Below, piece by piece: positions 50,082-59,553 of a stretch of 64,000 nt of DNA. Position 1 is the first letter of the stretch. The number at the start of each line of letters is the position of its first letter. The notes under the pieces were generated by a model, which was given only the letters and a program-made list of their open reading frames with translations, was not told the DNA's origin and did not search any database. This stretch comes from Sulfolobus sp. E5-1-F (GTDB taxonomy: Archaea; Thermoproteota; Thermoprotei_A; Sulfolobales; Sulfolobaceae). The DNA lies in assembly GCF_009601705.1 (NCBI RefSeq), contig NZ_CP045687.1:842630-906629 (forward strand). The letters are read 5' to 3'. The position numbers and the translations under genes are program-made.

Positions 50082-51764
50082 TCATGCAAAGCTTGCGGAC
50101 ATTTCATCGGATGTGTACAGACGTATTAAAAACCAGTTGGCGTTCTCCCTCATTGCCTCCTTTGCAAGTTCAACGACTATTTCGGAGTTTTTATCTGGAT
50201 CTCGGTTGTCCCATCGATTCATTGCCTTATTAAATACTTCTGCCATATCTTTATATTCTTCGCCGATCTGCTCAATTTTGAACCTTTCAAAGTAATTTTC
50301 CAAGGCGCCAATAAAGAATGTTAAAATATATGTCCCTATCAAGATGCCAAATGTAATTAGCTTGCTTATGGACATTACGTTCAGAACGTTCAACAAGACC
50401 ACCAGCGAGATGCCGACAATAATCAAGAATTCAACAACCCTTTTCAGCTTATTTACTTCTTTCTCATACTTATTCACCGTACTTGAGTAATACTCGAGCT
50501 GCCCTCCAATCCAATACTTCTTTACCGCCTCAAAATCGGGCCTTGGCTGCGGATCAAATACGTTTACAGACTTCAGCGTTTCCCTAACCCACCTAATGTA
50601 TTTCTTGTACCTCCTTGGATAGAGATCGTGAATGTCCTCATGCTTCCCGGCAAGCCTCAAAAAGAACAAAACCCTAAGCCCCTCAGCCAAAGCCCTATAC
50701 TGTATATATTTCAGACGAAATGATTTCGAAAGTTTCAAATACCTAAAAATAATCAATGAAACTATGTAAAGCACAGAATACGACAGCAAAGCCCAAAAAG
50801 CATCTGATAATTCATAAAACAAAAGCAGAGTTAACAACAAAAACCCCAAAATAAATATCTGAGAAATCTGAGTTAACCTCCACCTATCCCTATACCTAAT
50901 TGAAATCGCATCAGACTCTCCAAATATAAATGAAACAAAATTCTCCTTCCTAAGAATTTCCTCACGCTTTCTCGAATCCTCCTCAAAAACTAAACTATCC
51001 CTAGATCTCTTAACCTCCTCCTCACTCAACTTCTTAACCTCCCTATTAAATTCGTCAATTTTCTTAAACGTTTCATTCTTATCTAAACACAACTCCTTTC
51101 CACCCTGACCAATCTCCGGACACAACCATTCAACCGTGGGATTAAAGTTCAACTCCGGATACTTCTTCCTCCTAGTACGAATATGCACGACAACTCCCTT
51201 ATCAGGCTCATCCAAAGGACCTATATACGGTGTATACTCATTAGGCAAACCCTCCAGTTTAAACTTAACTATTTCAGATGTCCCACCCTTTAAACCCGTA
51301 ACCTTACCATCCCAAAGAGCTATCAACACTTGACAATGTTTAACTATATACACACCAACTTCCTCATACCTTTGATCCCTTTCCGGCCCATACTGTTTTA
51401 TTGCATCTATTTTACTAGGATCTATTGGCAAAGTGAAATAGCCTAACGCTTGTTTCTTAAGCCTCTCATATTCCTCTAACGAATCCTTGAAGTCATCCTT
51501 GTACAGATCCTCCCGCATTGGCAATACAACAACATACTTCACACCCTCCTCCAAAGCAGCCTCAGCAGCAATCCTATCAGCACCCTCAGCCAAAGGAGTT
51601 AAGAGAAGCAAAGGAGTATCAGGAAACTTACTCCTCAACTCCCTAAAAACCCCTTTGATCAACTCCTTCAACCTATCCCTATCTTCATCAGGTATATCCC
51701 TATGCCCAGTTATCCCAACTACAAGATGTATATACTTCCTTTCAGCATCTACGTCTTTACTCAT
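50082..51764 (-). CDS. SLOG-domain protein with four membrane helices (SLATT-like), putative effector
   Basis: 560 residues. SLOG domain: VVGITGHRD (15-23), LTPLAEGADRIAAEAAL (55-71), VVLPMREDLY, QVLIALWDGKVTGLKGGTSEIV (145-166). Then a charged linker, two helices (301-318, 322-342), the juxtamembrane QYRALAEGLRVLFFLRLAG (355-373), and two more helices (443-462, 467-486), followed by a soluble tail. SLOG folds bind nucleotides or NAD derivatives, and SLATT-type helices are predicted pores, so membrane disruption on ligand sensing is the inferred action. ATG overlaps the STAND gene stop (ATGA), indicating coupled expression. The protein has no signal peptide. Confidence 0.8.
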   Translation of the reverse strand: MSKDVDAERKYIHLVVGITGHRDIPDEDRDRLKELIKGVFRELRSKFPDTPLLLLTPLAEGADRIAAEAALEEGVKYVVVLPMREDLYKDDFKDSLEEYERLKKQALGYFTLPIDPSKIDAIKQYGPERDQRYEEVGVYIVKHCQVLIALWDGKVTGLKGGTSEIVKFKLEGLPNEYTPYIGPLDEPDKGVVVHIRTRRKKYPELNFNPTVEWLCPEIGQGGKELCLDKNETFKKIDEFNREVKKLSEEEVKRSRDSLVFEEDSRKREEILRKENFVSFIFGESDAISIRYRDRWRLTQISQIFILGFLLLTLLLFYELSDAFWALLSYSVLYIVSLIIFRYLKLSKSFRLKYIQYRALAEGLRVLFFLRLAGKHEDIHDLYPRRYKKYIRWVRETLKSVNVFDPQPRPDFEAVKKYWIGGQLEYYSSTVNKYEKEVNKLKRVVEFLIIVGISLVVLLNVLNVMSISKLITFGILIGTYILTFFIGALENYFERFKIEQIGEEYKDMAEVFNKAMNRWDNRDPDKNSEIVVELAKEAMRENANWFLIRLYTSDEMSASFA

Positions 51765-54700
51765 CCTCTCTCCCCTCTCCTAGCCATCTCAACACATTGC
51801 GATGCGAGATTAGCGTAGTAATTCAAATTAAACCTCCTAAATATATCCAATGCCTCACTACACGCCTTAATAGCTCCATCATAATCACCCTTCTCTAAAT
51901 AAATATAACCAATGGCAATCAAAGTGGTCGCAAATTCTGGGCGATTTCTACCATATACCTTCTCCCTAATACTTAAAGCCTCATTATAGTACTCTAAAGC
52001 CTTATCGTAATCACCCTTCTCTTTATAAACAAGACCAATGTTATGTAACGTACCTGCAACATCTGGGTGATTCCTACCATATACCTTCTCCCTAATACTT
52101 AAAGCCTCATTATAGTACTCTAAAGCCTTATCGTAATCACCCTTATTTACATAGACATTCCCAATGTTATTCAATGTGTCCGCAACTTTTGGATGATCCC
52201 TACCATATACCTTCTCCCTAATACTTAAAGCCTCATTATAGTACTCTAAAGCCTTATCAAACTCACCCTTCTCTTTATAAACAAGACCAATGTTATGTAA
52301 CGTACCTGCAACATCTGGGTGATTCCTACCATATACCTTCTCCCTAATACTTAAAGCCTCATTATAGTATTTTAAAGCCTTATCAAGCTCACCCTTCTCT
52401 TCATAAATAGCTCCAATGTTATGTAACGTACCTGCAACATCTGGGTGATCCCTACCATATACCTTCTCCTTAATACTTAAAGCCTCATTATAGTATTTTA
52501 AAGCCTTATCAAGCTCACCCTTCTCTTCATAGACATTCCCAATGTTATTCAACGATACCGCAACATTCGGATGATCCCTACCATATACCTTATCATAAAT
52601 ATTCAAAGCCTCATTATAGTACTCTAAAGCCTTATCGTAATCACCCTTATTTACATAGACATTCCCAATGTTATTCAACGATACCGCAACATTCGGATGA
52701 TCCCTACCATATACCTTATCATAAATATTCAAAGCCTCATTATAGTACTCTAAAGCCTTATCAAACTCACCCTTCTCTTTATAAACAAGACCAATGTTAT
52801 GTAACGTACCTGCAACATCTGGGTGATTCCTACCATATACCTTCTCCCTAATACTTAAAGCCTCATTATAGTATTTTAAAGCCTTATCAAGCTCACCCTT
52901 CTCTTCATAAATAGCTCCAATGTTATGTAACGTACCTGCAACATCTGGGTGATCCCTACCATATACCTTCTCCTTAATACTTAAAGCCTCATTATAGTAC
53001 TCTAAAGCCTTATCAAGCTCACCCTTCTCTTCATAAATAGCTCCAATGTTATTCAATGTGTCCGCAACATTCGGATGATCCCTACCATAGAACTTCTCAT
53101 AAATACTCAAAGCCTCATTATAGAAATTCAGTGCTTCATCAAAACAACCCAACGAACCCATTAAAATTCCAAGGTCATTTAAAATATCAGCCCTCTCCTT
53201 GTTATCTTGAACGCCCGTAACTTTATCACTAAACATCATATTCTCACAATCCTTCCCAAAACCAAACGTTACATAATTAACCAACTCGTAAAACCTGTTG
53301 TTAGGGTACTCTCTTAAGAAGAGCTTAAGCACGTTAACGTTTGAGAGGTATTTCCTAATCTCATCCCTATCACCAACCATGTAAAGCTGGTAAGGTGCCT
53401 CATATATCTGCCTCTCATCAACCTCTTGCTTCGAAAAGTAATTGTAAATTTTACGCCTATACTCAACTTCCTCACCCTTATCCTTGAACAACTTCTTCAC
53501 CATATCCCTCAAAGACTCATGCATGAAATCAAGCAAATCATTCTTATTAGCCAAATTATAATCAAGATAATTCCTCATAACCGAAAGATATGCGGGAAGT
53601 ATATCCGACGAAATCCCAACAACCTCATTTTCACTCAACCCACTCCTAGAAACAGCAATCAACTTCAAAAACTCTAAAACCGACTTATCATTCCCAAAAT
53701 ACATGTACATCACACGCCTAAGCTCCCCAACCATAACACCATAAAGATCCTCCAAACTTCTCACAAGATACTTCCCTATCATCCTATCCATAAATTCATT
53801 CTGAGACTCCTTCTCCTCCTTCATTTCGTAAATCCCTAAAAGCATATTAAGGAGCGTCCTCAAGTACAATGGATTCCCAGCCATCTCCTCCTTAACTATC
53901 CTCTTAATTTGATCCTCCGTCAATTCCTTCCCCGCAGCCTTTAACACCCTCCTTATTATCTCCTCCCTCTGCTCAATCCCCAGACTACTCAGCACGTACT
54001 TTCTGAAGCCCAAGTTCACCAGATAATTAAACTGCTCAGTGTTATCCCTACACGACGCAAGAACCTTCACCTCATTTAGATAACTAACGAAAAGTAACTC
54101 CCGAGCCTCCGGCAGTTGGTCAAGACCATCTATTATTATGAGCGCATCTTCCTTATTAGGAAGAAGGCTCAACCACCTTGATAACATCGCGTAAATTTTA
54201 TCCTCCTCATTTGGAATTTCCTCATCGATCTTAATACCATTGGACTCTAACCTCTTCTTTAGTTCTTGGAGTAAGTGAAGCGCGATGTCCTTTGACGTCT
54301 CTCTTCCTCCCGCCCCTATGTAGTGTTCAAAAACAAAGGCGTTAGGTTTCTCGCCTCTGTATATTTCGCTCAAGCGGGCTAGCGTAGCGCTCTTCCCGAT
54401 CCCAACTTCACCAGTAACCACAACCCTTCTTTCTTTTTCCAACTTTTCCAATATTTCTTTCAAGGTCTTCTTATCCTCAACGTAATTATTCAATAGCTCC
54501 ATCTTGTATTGTGAGTGTATTAAGTTGATCTGGTCAAGCTGCGAGATCGACTGTTCAGGGTAGTTCTCGTCGAGCATTTTAATGAAATCTTCTACGATTT
54601 GTTCTCCCAACTCTACAGGGTTCTCAAACTCCTTATCTCTCCAGTGCCAAGGTGAATCCTTCACCCTGATTTTACTCTTTAAATCCTGAAGCTTTCTCAA

Positions 54701-55162
54701 ATTTTCTGAGTCATCTTGTTTTTCAGTAGATGCTTTATCAGATTTGAAATAGAAGTAGGAGTATTTTGCCATTTCGGGCTTGAGGAAGACCGCATAGTCT
54801 ATTTCCATGTGGGTAATGCTGTACCCTTCTTGAGTCCATTTGTCCTTCAACGTCTTATCTACTTTAAGTTTGTCCACTTGTTCCTTAGAAGGTACCGTGC
54901 CGTACCTGTTGCCCAGTATTCCTATAAAGTGGGGTCTTGCCTCATCTATCTCTGCGAGGCACCTCTCAATGATCTTGGCTAGGTCGTTTTCTGTAATACC
55001 CCATCTCAAGTCTATTATGGTTACATATACTCCTCTGCTTCTCGCTATACTTCTTAGCTTGGGGTAAACTACGTTTACTAGGTAATCGCGCTCTTTATTC
55101 ATATCCCTAAAAGTTGAGGAGACGAAAATCCTTACAACGTTTTTCTTTTGCTTCCCGCTCAT
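51761..55162 (-). CDS. DUF4062-NACHT/STAND NTPase with kinesin-light-chain-type TPRs
   Basis: 1133 residues. Residues 8-~130: DUF4062 (RIFVSSTFRDMNKERDYLV, DLRWGITEND, EIDEARPHFIGILGNRYGT), the domain at the head of NPHP3/TEP1-like proteins. NACHT-type NTPase: Walker A VVVTGEVGIGKSATLARL (247-264), Walker B ALIIIDGLDQLPEA (340-353), then winged-helix regions. Residues 659-1078: ten 42-residue TPRs (LHNIGLVYKEKGEFDKALEY type), plus a partial eleventh. STAND proteins oligomerise on binding a trigger, here probably through the TPRs. A TATA-like tttaaata lies about 25 bases before the ATG. First gene of the cassette. Confidence 0.88.
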   Translation of the reverse strand: MSGKQKKNVVRIFVSSTFRDMNKERDYLVNVVYPKLRSIARSRGVYVTIIDLRWGITENDLAKIIERCLAEIDEARPHFIGILGNRYGTVPSKEQVDKLKVDKTLKDKWTQEGYSITHMEIDYAVFLKPEMAKYSYFYFKSDKASTEKQDDSENLRKLQDLKSKIRVKDSPWHWRDKEFENPVELGEQIVEDFIKMLDENYPEQSISQLDQINLIHSQYKMELLNNYVEDKKTLKEILEKLEKERRVVVTGEVGIGKSATLARLSEIYRGEKPNAFVFEHYIGAGGRETSKDIALHLLQELKKRLESNGIKIDEEIPNEEDKIYAMLSRWLSLLPNKEDALIIIDGLDQLPEARELLFVSYLNEVKVLASCRDNTEQFNYLVNLGFRKYVLSSLGIEQREEIIRRVLKAAGKELTEDQIKRIVKEEMAGNPLYLRTLLNMLLGIYEMKEEKESQNEFMDRMIGKYLVRSLEDLYGVMVGELRRVMYMYFGNDKSVLEFLKLIAVSRSGLSENEVVGISSDILPAYLSVMRNYLDYNLANKNDLLDFMHESLRDMVKKLFKDKGEEVEYRRKIYNYFSKQEVDERQIYEAPYQLYMVGDRDEIRKYLSNVNVLKLFLREYPNNRFYELVNYVTFGFGKDCENMMFSDKVTGVQDNKERADILNDLGILMGSLGCFDEALNFYNEALSIYEKFYGRDHPNVADTLNNIGAIYEEKGELDKALEYYNEALSIKEKVYGRDHPDVAGTLHNIGAIYEEKGELDKALKYYNEALSIREKVYGRNHPDVAGTLHNIGLVYKEKGEFDKALEYYNEALNIYDKVYGRDHPNVAVSLNNIGNVYVNKGDYDKALEYYNEALNIYDKVYGRDHPNVAVSLNNIGNVYEEKGELDKALKYYNEALSIKEKVYGRDHPDVAGTLHNIGAIYEEKGELDKALKYYNEALSIREKVYGRNHPDVAGTLHNIGLVYKEKGEFDKALEYYNEALSIREKVYGRDHPKVADTLNNIGNVYVNKGDYDKALEYYNEALSIREKVYGRNHPDVAGTLHNIGLVYKEKGDYDKALEYYNEALSIREKVYGRNRPEFATTLIAIGYIYLEKGDYDGAIKACSEALDIFRRFNLNYYANLASQCVEMARRGERG
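52227..52999. repeat. Tandem block duplication within the TPR region
   Basis: The segments 52227-52495 and 52731-52999 are identical over 269 bases and sit exactly 504 bases apart (four 126-bp TPR units). At protein level units 2-5 and 6-9 form matching blocks, showing a recent duplication of a four-unit array. Confidence 0.85.
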
Positions 55163-56041: not shown

Positions 56042-56371
56042 ATGATGCCATTGCAAGAGAGAATAAAGGAGGCGATAATGACGTATTTGCAAAGCAACTT
56101 ATATTACCCAGACGAGTACAGACATAAGTTGAACTGGTTTATAAGGTTCGGCAAGTGGATTATCACTAATTACACTATTTACAACAGTAAGGGCAAAAAG
56201 GTACGCGAAGTTTACGCTTATTTTAAGCTAAACAGAAGGGGTGTGTTAACCCTTTTAGGTGAGTATTGGATTAACGATCAGGATGGAACGTGGATAGGAG
56301 AGGAATTAGTAAACAGAAAGATTAGTAAGGATTGCATAAAGATTGTAAACAATAAGTACCTTTGTGACTAA
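56042..56371 (+). CDS. Hypothetical protein, lineage-specific
   Basis: 109 residues starting MMPLQERIKEAIMTYLQSNL, Tyr/Trp-rich, with GKWIITNYTIYNSKGKKVRE and ISKDCIKIVNNKYLCD at the end; two cysteines. Even codon use and a TATA-like stretch upstream (tatattgtagttataata) support expression. I do not recognise a family. It sits between the cassette debris and a 730-base gap before the PolB2 operon. Confidence 0.55.
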   Translation: MMPLQERIKEAIMTYLQSNLYYPDEYRHKLNWFIRFGKWIITNYTIYNSKGKKVREVYAYFKLNRRGVLTLLGEYWINDQDGTWIGEELVNRKISKDCIKIVNNKYLCD

Positions 56372-57050
56372 TCTCTTTTTAATATCGTTAATTTACCTTA
56401 AATTTTAGACCTTATACATTCGCCATAATGTAATCGATCTTCATGAAAAGGAGCATTAACCTTAATAATTTGTTATAACTTGCTTCAAATATCGATATAA
56501 TAGGAGGAGATATACGTTTAACACTATTTCACTAGCACTTCTAGCGTATAAAGGTATAAAGTGTAATTATATAAATAAGCAGAATCGAATAATCTTTATT
56601 TATTTATTTTGGGTTCTTTTAGTGTTCCAACTCACTTCCTCCGCTTAAAATGCTAATCTTTAACGTTGATTATTTCATGAAAGCTGTTATTTCCTTTTTG
56701 TTACTGTACACTTTAGCAAAAATGAAAGATCCTTATCATTAAGATTTATTGTTTAATTAACTATTACATCTTTTTTTGCACCTAAATTGATCATTCTAAC
56801 CTAGAGTAATCTCCTATAATATCAACTTCAAAGCCAACAATGAGAAGTCTGCATAAAGAAAACGCGCAACTTGGATTATTAGTAGTTTTATCGTCGTAAC
56901 AGTAGAATTGAGTCGTTCAAAAATATTTTGACAAATTCCTTTTGCAAGTAGACTCTCCCACCTTGCCGAAACTTTTTCTTCTGTAATTAAAAGATAATAC
57001 CATCTTTAATGTATTATCTTCCTAATATATTACTACAAAAGTTAAAACCT
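56372..57050. other. Intergenic, nothing recognised
   Basis: About 680 AT-rich bases without a usable frame or repeat that I can support. The control region of the PolB2 operon follows. Confidence 0.4.
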
Positions 57051-57083
57051 ACACTTTCAGTGTTCTCTCTAAAGACTTAATTT
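57051..57083 (+). promoter_or_regulatory. Candidate damage-response promoter of the PolB2 operon
   Basis: ACACTTTCAGTGT (57051-57063) is a palindrome with centre TTC containing ACTTTC, which fits the ANTTTC hexamer reported for UV/Orc1-2-controlled Sulfolobales promoters. A TATA-like acttaattt lies near 57075-57083, about 22-30 bases before the ATG at 57105. The link to the damage response is inferred from motif and gene content. Confidence 0.5.
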
Positions 57084-57104
57084 GCTAAGGGAGAGATATA
57101 ACAC

Positions 57105-57371
57105 ATGGGAAGAACACAACCATCATACACCATGGCAGTAAACAGAGAATTAGAAAAACTGGAAAGAATAATTTCACGATTGAACTCACCCACCCTATCC
57201 CTTTTACTCGAAAAGGTTAAAGAAAAAGTAAGATATGCTCAAAGTGCATCATACGATGAACTCGTTGACCCCTATAACCTAGTTTACTTCACACTTATTT
57301 GGGCTTTAGCGGAGGAGTGTGAGAAATGGAGGAATACGTGCTTGACGCTTACCCGATCAAAGGAGGAGTGA
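57105..57371 (+). CDS. Small helical protein of the PolB2 operon
   Basis: 88 residues, all-helical prediction, with EKLERIISRLNSPTLSLLLEKVKEKVRY followed by YNLVYFTLIWALAEECEKW. No catalytic motif. In Sulfolobales such a small protein precedes polB2 and belongs to the same damage-inducible operon. The stop lies 46 bases inside the PolB2 frame, so translation is likely coupled. Role inferred from context: a subunit or adaptor of the translesion complex. Confidence 0.75.
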   Translation: MGRTQPSYTMAVNRELEKLERIISRLNSPTLSLLLEKVKEKVRYAQSASYDELVDPYNLVYFTLIWALAEECEKWRNTCLTLTRSKEE

Positions 57372-58984
57372 AACTATTCCTAAACAATTTCAAGGAGAAA
57401 ACTATCAGAACAACGTTTCCAGTTTACGCTATAACAGACAACCCCGATATAGTACTACAGCATCCGGAAGTGAAGTATTATGAGGAAGAGAAATGGAAAA
57501 CGTTAAATGGGAAAGAGGTTAAAGTTTACCGCTTTGAAGTTGAATCCTTTGACGCTTATTATTACATGAGGAAGAGGCTAAACGTAGTTAACGAAACGCC
57601 AACAGTATTATCACAAACCCTATATCGCTTAGGGATAAGACCCTTTAGGAGATTACACTCTTATGATGACGAATTCCCAAAGTTAACTATTGCCAGAGTT
57701 GTGCCCTTAGATTGGTATGGTGAGTCGTCAAAGGGGAAAGTTTTTGAAGTCAAAATAAATGATGAGGTTAAGAGATTTTACGAAAAGCCTGAAATTGAGG
57801 CTGATGTAGTCGAATGCCTAGGAGAGGCGTGTAATTACGTAAAGTCGAACGTTAAGATTAGAATTGAGAAGAAGAGATCTCCAGTTTCAGCTAAGGGGTT
57901 AATAGAGTGGTCCCTTATCTCGCTTACCCCAATTCACGAAATAGCCTATGCCACTATTGGTAAAGTGTTAACGACAAATGAAGCTTGGGTTGCGTTTAAG
58001 AGAAGAATAATCATACCTAAGGTTGTTCCAAGAGTTGAGAAATTGAGGAGATTGGAGGATATAATGATGGCGGATAAGGGTGGATTGATACTCTTCCCAC
58101 AGCTTGGATGTTACAATAACGTTTATCAGGTTGACTTCTCTTCAATGTATCCCTCCTTGATCGTTAAGTACAACATTTCAGCTGAAACCGTTGACAGTTG
58201 TAATGATATAACGACTGAGTTACATTCAATTTGCTTAAGGGAAAAGGGAATTATACCAGAGGCGTTAGAGTGGTTGATAAAGAGAAAATCAGAGTTGAAG
58301 AAAATTGATGAGGAGAGAGCTGAGGCAATAAAGTGGATTTTAGTTGCCTCGTTTGGGTATCTAGGTTATAGGAATTCCTTGTTTGGGAAGATCGAGGCTT
58401 ACGAAATGGTTACCTATTTCGCCAGGAAGACGTTAAGGAGAACAATGGAGATTGCTGAAGAAATGGGATTGAAGGTTTTACACGGTATAATAGATTCACT
58501 AGTCGTTAAGGGTGATAACGTTGATAAATTCGTTGAGAGAGTTGAGGAGGAAACTGGGCTAAGACTGGATTATAAACGTTATAATTGGATTATCTTCACT
58601 ACTACCAGAAATGATACTCCCTATCCTACAAGGTATATTGGAAACATGAATGGTGAAATGATCGCTAAGGGTTTAATAAGGGAGAACATGCCAAATATCG
58701 TTAAGTCGTTTTTGGAAGACGTGTTAAGGGAATTTTCATCAGCTGGGACTTGTTCCGATATAAAGAAGGTTAGGATTAGGGATTTGTTTGAACAGTATAG
58801 AAAGAGGGCTATAAATGGTGAGCCAATAGATTACGTTATATGGATTAAGGGTATTCCTTACGTGAGGGGAGTTAAGGGTTTCTACGATGCTAGACTAGGT
58901 TATATGGGAAGGGATGTAGATTACTACGTTAATTACTTGAAGAGGGTTTACAAAGATTTGGAGGAGGTGATCTCTAGATGCTAA
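57326..58984 (+). CDS. dpo2: PolB2-type family B DNA polymerase (Dpo2), no exonuclease domain
   Basis: 552 residues, shorter than replicative PolB (about 800) and without the DEDD proofreading domain. Motif A: YQVDFSSMYPSLIVKYN (Asp270 intact). Motif B: KWILVASFGYLGYRN (residues 336-350) instead of K-x6-N-S-x-Y-G. Motif C: HGIIDSLVVKG, one Asp (Asp390) where active PolB has D-T-D. Start: ATG at 57326 behind ggaggagtg. Sulfolobales Dpo2 is known for low activity and a role in DNA damage tolerance. It overlaps the next gene by 7 bases. Confidence 0.88.
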   Translation: MEEYVLDAYPIKGGVKLFLNNFKEKTIRTTFPVYAITDNPDIVLQHPEVKYYEEEKWKTLNGKEVKVYRFEVESFDAYYYMRKRLNVVNETPTVLSQTLYRLGIRPFRRLHSYDDEFPKLTIARVVPLDWYGESSKGKVFEVKINDEVKRFYEKPEIEADVVECLGEACNYVKSNVKIRIEKKRSPVSAKGLIEWSLISLTPIHEIAYATIGKVLTTNEAWVAFKRRIIIPKVVPRVEKLRRLEDIMMADKGGLILFPQLGCYNNVYQVDFSSMYPSLIVKYNISAETVDSCNDITTELHSICLREKGIIPEALEWLIKRKSELKKIDEERAEAIKWILVASFGYLGYRNSLFGKIEAYEMVTYFARKTLRRTMEIAEEMGLKVLHGIIDSLVVKGDNVDKFVERVEEETGLRLDYKRYNWIIFTTTRNDTPYPTRYIGNMNGEMIAKGLIRENMPNIVKSFLEDVLREFSSAGTCSDIKKVRIRDLFEQYRKRAINGEPIDYVIWIKGIPYVRGVKGFYDARLGYMGRDVDYYVNYLKRVYKDLEEVISRC

Positions 58985-59553
58985 TTACTGGTTTTCCCTT
59001 TTTAGATGAGATAATAAAGAGAGATGAAATAGTTGAGTTCTTCTCAACTGATAGTGATTTGTTGAGAATTTTCTATCATAGGGTTATAGCTATTTCAGCT
59101 CCAGTTTACGTTGTAGTAGTTTCCGAAAGAGGCGGATTAGATCCCTATTTAATTGAGCGTTTTCAAAACGTTTTCGACAATCACGCTGAAGTTTATATAA
59201 GGAGGGCTTTCAAGGCAGAGGATGTGCCAATTACCATTGATTCAATGGGAGATAATGACTTAATAGTCATTGATCCTTATCACCACAGAAAGAATTACAC
59301 TAAAATTGTATCGTCATTGAGAAAGGTTAAGGGTAGGAAGTTCTTGTTCAGTTTTATGGATAGGGAAAGAGAGGGGTCAATTTTCGGCTCTCACACTTCT
59401 CATGCAATGATCAAGTTGATTAAAAGCACTAGGGGTTTTAAGTTTGTAATAGTGAAAAGCGTTACCAGTAAAGAGATTGAAATTCCCAATTACTTGTTGG
59501 ACTTATACGGCAAAGTAAGCGATGATGGCGGTTTATTGAAATATATGATCTAA
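58978..59553 (+). CDS. RecA/RadA-fold protein without P-loop, PolB2 partner (ImuA-like)
   Basis: 191 residues. The start ITGFPFLDEIIKRDEIVEFF matches the RadA core start, but the P-loop position reads FSTDSDLLRIF, with no GxxxxGKT. Walker B-like strand NDLIVIDPYHHRKN is kept, then an ASCE-like end IVKSVTSKEIEIPNYLL. So it has a RecA fold unlikely to bind ATP. It overlaps PolB2 by 7 bases. By analogy to bacterial ImuA with ImuB/DnaE2, it may target the polymerase to damaged DNA or to RadA (inference). Confidence 0.7.
   Translation: MLITGFPFLDEIIKRDEIVEFFSTDSDLLRIFYHRVIAISAPVYVVVVSERGGLDPYLIERFQNVFDNHAEVYIRRAFKAEDVPITIDSMGDNDLIVIDPYHHRKNYTKIVSSLRKVKGRKFLFSFMDREREGSIFGSHTSHAMIKLIKSTRGFKFVIVKSVTSKEIEIPNYLLDLYGKVSDDGGLLKYMI

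Follow-up and report, generated by a model that had tools for sequence, protein, structure and literature searches.

The window, i.e., the whole stretch of 64,000 nucleotides that was analysed, lies within a 2.54 Mb single-contig genome, and at positions 57051-59553 it holds an operon in which, according to the sequence and ORF calls, an ANTTTC promoter element precedes the PPB2, PolB2, and iRadA frames, all on the forward strand. The elements recognised at this locus are:

57036-57048, + strand: probable BRE/TATA-like stretch (AAAAGTTAAAAC region), proposed from the sequence; a AAAAGTTTAAA-like stretch recurs there in close relatives
57053-57058, + strand: ANTTTC DNA-damage-response element, present as ACTTTC, 52 bases ahead of the PPB2 start codon
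57065-57069, + strand: CTCTC block downstream of ANTTTC, conserved in 24/29 genomes
57105-57371, + strand: PPB2, an arCOG07300-type small helical protein of 88 aa (ORF call)
57105-57116, + strand: N-terminal MGRT motif of PPB2 (sequence)
57326-58984, + strand: PolB2/Dpo2 DNA polymerase of 552 aa (PF00136, PRK05761, homologues)
58073-58078, + strand: D(K/R) motif of PolB2, D250-K251 (within ADKG, residues 249-252), Asp in 30/30 proteins
58133-58153, + strand: PolB2 motif A DFSSMYP (within VDFSSMYP) with the metal-binding D270, Asp in 30/30
58346-58366, + strand: PolB2 motif B ASFGYLG, with K336 ahead of it, FGYLG in 30/30
58481-58501, + strand: PolB2 motif C HGIIDSL, residues 386-392, with I/L/V in the first and Asp in the second position in 30/30
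58978-59553, + strand: iRadA, a RadA-family protein of 191 aa without ATPase motifs or N-terminal domain (hhalign to the RadA core)
59041-59067, + strand: lost P-loop site of iRadA, FSTDSDLLR opposite FGEFGSGKT of RadA (iRadA-RadA alignment)
59524-59547, + strand: degenerate, PCNA-binding-like C-terminus of iRadA, DGGLLKYM (C-terminal L-x-x-W/Y conservation)

The positions of the three ORFs and the 46-base overlap of the PPB2 and PolB2 frames, as given in the initial annotation, were borne out by the ORF calls; the PolB2 and iRadA frames share 7 bases. In comparison with three congeners, in which PolB2 is 91% and RadA 98-99% identical, the dN/dS values were 0.07-0.08 for PolB2, 0.03-0.05 for iRadA, and 0.04-0.09 for PPB2. 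All three frames are thus under strong purifying selection (0.03-0.09), and the locus is no product of chance. Judging from RadA sequence similarity, the genus is probably Saccharolobus. The 46-base overlap was measured directly in the present genome and in four congeners, and is implied by the coordinates in three genomes of a second genus (G114, G115, and G078). In other lineages PPB2 comprises 68-81 aa; wherever the start of polB2 could be located, the two frames overlap by 14-32 bases or are separated by a gap. A lineage-specific lengthening of PPB2 accounts for the 46-base overlap, which is not a system-wide trait.

Upstream of the operon, a 109-aa ORF without a Pfam match is located at 56042-56371 (+ strand). 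A 1133-aa protein is encoded at 51761-55162 (- strand), and displays a DUF4062 domain, a region of the P-loop NTPase type, and a TPR domain resembling that of nephrocystin-3 (TPR_NPHP3, E 3.9e-106); a 126-bp TPR unit is repeated in tandem approximately 9.4 times (87% match). The protein is of the STAND type, and may serve in defence or as a sensor.

Motifs and ancestry of the three proteins

PolB2 matches PF00136 (E 1.3e-12) and NCBIfam PRK05761 (E 2.3e-69), and 28 further genomes of the family encode PolB2 with 44-91% identity. In an order-wide alignment (30 proteins, 30 genomes), the Asp residues of motif A, of the D(K/R) motif, and of the second position in motif C were retained throughout, while the first Asp position of motif C was occupied by I, L, or V in all 30. 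The intact motif A, the ASFGYLG motif B, and HGIIDSL instead of D-T-D in motif C are present as initially annotated, with the refinement that only the first Asp of DTD has been swapped (for Ile), and that the second (D390) is retained. It is this second Asp that carries the metal according to structural work cited in PMC8764526. For the polymerase, initially designated as exonuclease-less, exonuclease-degenerate is the better term, as has been published (PMC11791011). A B-family palm with the motif A Asp, an HxxxD motif C, and a D(K/R) motif ahead of motif A together place the protein in PolB2, the archaeal B-family polymerase group 2. The altered motif C does not equal inactivity, and residue conservation points to an active site that is changed yet maintained. 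For the D(K/R) motif, contact with the PPB2 arm has been predicted from a published model (PMC11791011).

The iRadA protein is a remote relative of RadA, as HMMER searches with iRadA against PDB and Pfam returned zero matches, and no relative of solved structure was found by sequence. Its kinship with RadA is supported by a targeted profile comparison, beside published structure models. The iRadA profile (30 homologues) aligned collinearly with the RadA profile (29 proteins) at an hhalign E-value of 3.5e-5 and a score of 39.5, with iRadA residues 3-177 covering RadA 90-318, i.e., downstream of the N-terminal domain of RadA. As controls, 60 column-shuffled RadA profiles scored at most 19.9, about half of the real score, and PolB2 scored 14.1. 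At the P-loop position iRadA carries VEFFSTDSDLLR opposite TEFFGEFGSGKT of the RadA (324 aa) of the same cell, and GK[ST] was found at this position in 0/30 aligned iRadA homologues, by which the initial description of a RadA-like protein with FSTDSDLLR in the place of the P-loop (lost Walker A) was corroborated.

At the C-terminus of iRadA, L-x-x-W/Y is found in nearly all family homologues; other Sulfolobaceae show an EEGLMKWL-like ending, and in several further families of the order the motif reads QxxLxxWL or QxxLxxYL. PCNA-binding (clamp) motifs in iRadA have already been published (PMC11791011), and the C-terminus in the present species fits these in weak form, suggesting that iRadA may bind PCNA. 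Predicted with AlphaFold from alignments of two sequences, the structures of iRadA and PolB2 reached mean pLDDT values of only 47 and 43, and were not taken as evidence. A Foldseek search with the low-confidence iRadA model retrieved RecA and RadA-helicase folds only at E-values near 0.02-0.04, interspersed with unrelated folds of the P-loop and Rossmann types, and was discounted. Because of the low confidence of these models, the account of the complex given below relies on published models.

PPB2 starts with MGRT in all 29 homologues of the family, three of which use GTG. Searches with the 88-aa protein found no Y-family match and no family match in Pfam or NCBIfam. A PPB2 trimer that touches both PolB2 and iRadA appears in a published AlphaFold-Multimer model only (PMC11791011). 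In one congener a second PPB2-like fragment (L161, G099:C1:246694-246786), 65% identical over residues 1-31, is located outside the operon.

Promoter element and joint retention in the family

ANTTTC is known as the DNA-damage-response element (DDRE) bound by Orc1-2 (PMC9738581; also PMC6934391), and its proposed presence upstream of the operon was confirmed in the form of ACTTTC. In 28/29 family genomes it occurs in the 100 bases ahead of PPB2, compared to a mean of 8.4 and a maximum of 16 in 300 rounds of dinucleotide shuffling, and this promoter element is the feature that connects the operon with the Orc1-2 DNA-damage regulon. When each genus was represented by no more than two genomes, it was found in 13/13 (shuffles 3.7). 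ANTTTC followed by a CTCTC-like block was encountered in 24/29 genomes (shuffles 0.85, maximum 4). As the motif expressions were composed after viewing the sequences, and as these come from related genomes, the counts describe conservation and do not constitute a blind test. The CTCTC block is likely near the transcription start, and the element would extend to ANTTTC-RNT-N3-CTCTC, a modest addition to the shorter, published hexamer. In a genome-wide search that allowed at most one mismatch, the extended motif gave 84 matches and its reverse 80; not being enriched over its reverse, the extended motif alone defines no regulon. Four other exact matches were found, and at the two that were examined (L163 and L165) no recognisable damage-response gene was present. 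ACTTTC lies inside ACACTTTCAGTGT (57051-57063); this palindrome was rejected as a functional unit, since the flanking arms vary in relatives and ANTTTC itself is kept.

PolB2, iRadA, and PPB2 are each present in 29 of the 31 genomes of the family, and all three genes are absent from the same two, G098 and G059, which are listed as 100% and 99% complete. As G098 is a congener and G059 belongs to a different genus of the same family, these likely represent two separate joint losses. PPB2 is adjacent to polB2 except in four genomes, all of genus g3 (G022, G106, G084, and G107), in which it lies far from polB2-iradA and is nevertheless retained, and in G090, G109, and G104 iRadA is encoded on the strand opposite PolB2. 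All seven separated units, polB2 in the former four genomes and iradA in the latter three, have ANTTTC within approximately 110 bases upstream, and in the split operons of genus g3 the element precedes both the PPB2 unit and the polB2-iradA unit. A lone ANTTTC is expected by chance in about one third of such stretches, and the seven cases are therefore suggestive, not conclusive. Like the extended element, the retention of ANTTTC on each unit of split operons is absent from the cited operon literature, and both are modest additions.

A probable PolB2 mutasome and its relation to known systems

The system itself was already known. In 2014 the operon was described as PolB2, arCOG07300, and an inactivated RadA (PMC4104785), and in 2025 a heteropentameric PolB2 mutasome was predicted; the same paper uses the names PPB2 and iRadA, and reports IID as the altered motif of S. 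islandicus, the loss of the ATPase site, the MGRT arm, clamp motifs in iRadA, and the parallel to Pol V, along with high-confidence PolB2-iRadA-PPB2 models and gene fusions, while PolB2 with RadA modelled poorly (PMC11791011). Targeted mutagenesis in S. islandicus depends on Dpo2, which is inducible by damage, and dpo2 induction is known from S. islandicus, S. solfataricus, and S. acidocaldarius (PMC7390963). UV induced a single polymerase gene in S. solfataricus, dpoII, which is annotated in that species as two frames, SSO8124 and SSO1459 (PMC2246294). The initial statement that Dpo2 is damage-inducible in Sulfolobales thus agrees with published data from relatives. In S. islandicus LAL14/1 loss of dpo2 did not cause 4-NQO sensitivity, unlike in REY15A (PMC8100216), and the in vivo role of Dpo2 is on that account partly disputed. 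In its core, the initial reading of a PolB2/Dpo2 operon for a damage-inducible, multi-protein translesion polymerase, one subunit of which is an ATPase-dead member of the RecA family, is supported and corresponds to the view already published (PMC11791011, PMC4104785, PMC7390963, PMC8764526); it is largely right and not new.

The present operon very probably encodes such a PolB2 mutasome, damage-induced via ANTTTC and composed of the extender PolB2, PPB2, and a dead iRadA. Upon DNA damage, Orc1-2 would act via ANTTTC and the three genes would be transcribed together. PolB2, with its degenerate proofreading and with D270 and D390 held, would extend mismatched or lesion-paired primer ends, resulting in mutations. 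PPB2 probably forms a trimer of which the N-terminal MGRT arm would reach the PolB2-iRadA cleft, iRadA probably docks on a RadA-like oligomerisation motif of PolB2 in the way of a neighbouring RadA subunit, and the complex may be tethered to PCNA by the iRadA C-terminus. The anatomy of the genes, the conservation of their motifs and of the promoter element, the homology to RadA, and the all-or-none retention were observed directly in the genomes compared; induction, mutagenesis, and extender activity have been shown in S. islandicus (PMC7390963, PMC8764526), and the complex, its stoichiometry, docking, and PCNA contact are taken from published models only (PMC11791011). By analogy, we infer that the present operon behaves as in S. 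islandicus. A more far-reaching version, in which the longer element ANTTTC-RNT-N3-CTCTC operates, ANTTTC is selected on every piece of the operon so that the subunits must be co-induced for a working complex, and the iRadA C-terminus also delivers the complex to PCNA, can be proposed tentatively, as somewhat more doubtful than probable.

The original view of 2008/2014 held that a dead PolB2 and a dead RadA form a complex with a structural or regulatory role, either at stalled forks or when replication initiates (PMC4104785), in line with the disappearance of the first motif C Asp and the lack of ATPase motifs in iRadA. With both metal-binding Asp residues invariant in 30/30 proteins, Dpo2 of S. 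islandicus an active extender of mismatched and lesion-paired termini with an HxxxD motif, recombinant S. solfataricus Dpo2 likewise extending actively (PMC8764526), and targeted mutagenesis depending on dpo2 (PMC7390963), that complex is scarcely credible and already largely refuted by the published activity; PolB2 as a dead polymerase was rejected on the basis of motif conservation and this activity. Alternatively, iRadA could mainly modulate the true RadA filament by capping it or blocking recombination, with PolB2 as a separate, co-induced enzyme. A RadA core without the N-terminal domain could indeed cap filaments, and co-regulation alone proves no complex, but all-or-none retention with PolB2 and PPB2 across 31 genomes, as well as the high-confidence three-protein models, the gene fusions, and the poor PolB2-RadA model (PMC11791011), make this very unlikely.

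The nearest counterpart of the mutasome favoured here is the Dpo2 operon of S. islandicus, reported to be damage-induced, which has all three genes as well as the MGRT arm, the IID motif C, the D(K/R) motif, and the dead RadA core; residue numbers (DK 253-254 and IID 401-403 there, 250-251 and 388-390 in the present PolB2) reflect a difference of species, not of kind. With ImuA-ImuB-DnaE2 the system shares a dead RecA homologue, three genes located together, and damage-induced mutagenesis, and differs in that DnaE2 is a C-family and PolB2 a B-family polymerase, and that ImuB is an inactive Y-polymerase as opposed to the 88-aa helical PPB2. The parallel drawn in the initial annotation is consequently valid as an analogy of polymerase, dead RecA homologue, and accessory protein, and fails as membership, since the polymerase is of the B-family and no ImuB-like protein is encoded. 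Eukaryotic Pol zeta has subunits of its own (Rev7, Pol31, and Pol32), and motif C of its polymerase is intact. It resembles the present system as a B-family extender with an inactivated exonuclease in a multi-subunit complex (PMC11791011). For the RecA-like part the ImuA analogy is apt, as Walker A and B are missing from ImuA1 and ImuA2 as well (PMC12926913). The published comparisons are with Pol V and, for function, with Pol zeta (PMC11791011). Escherichia coli Pol V (UmuC-UmuD'2-RecA) likewise combines a damage-induced error-prone polymerase with a RecA-family protein and a small subunit with an N-terminal arm (PMC11791011); its polymerase is of the Y-family, unlike the B-family PolB2, the RecA homologue is ATPase-dead in the present system, and the small subunits are unrelated.

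The present copy adds an orthologue from another species as well as comparative support, i.e., the joint loss in two genomes and the element kept after splitting, which support the published model without proving it. In S. islandicus, targeted mutation induced by damage is reported to originate from PolB2/Dpo2, and no multi-subunit translesion polymerase of the B-family had been predicted in prokaryotes before the PolB2 complex.
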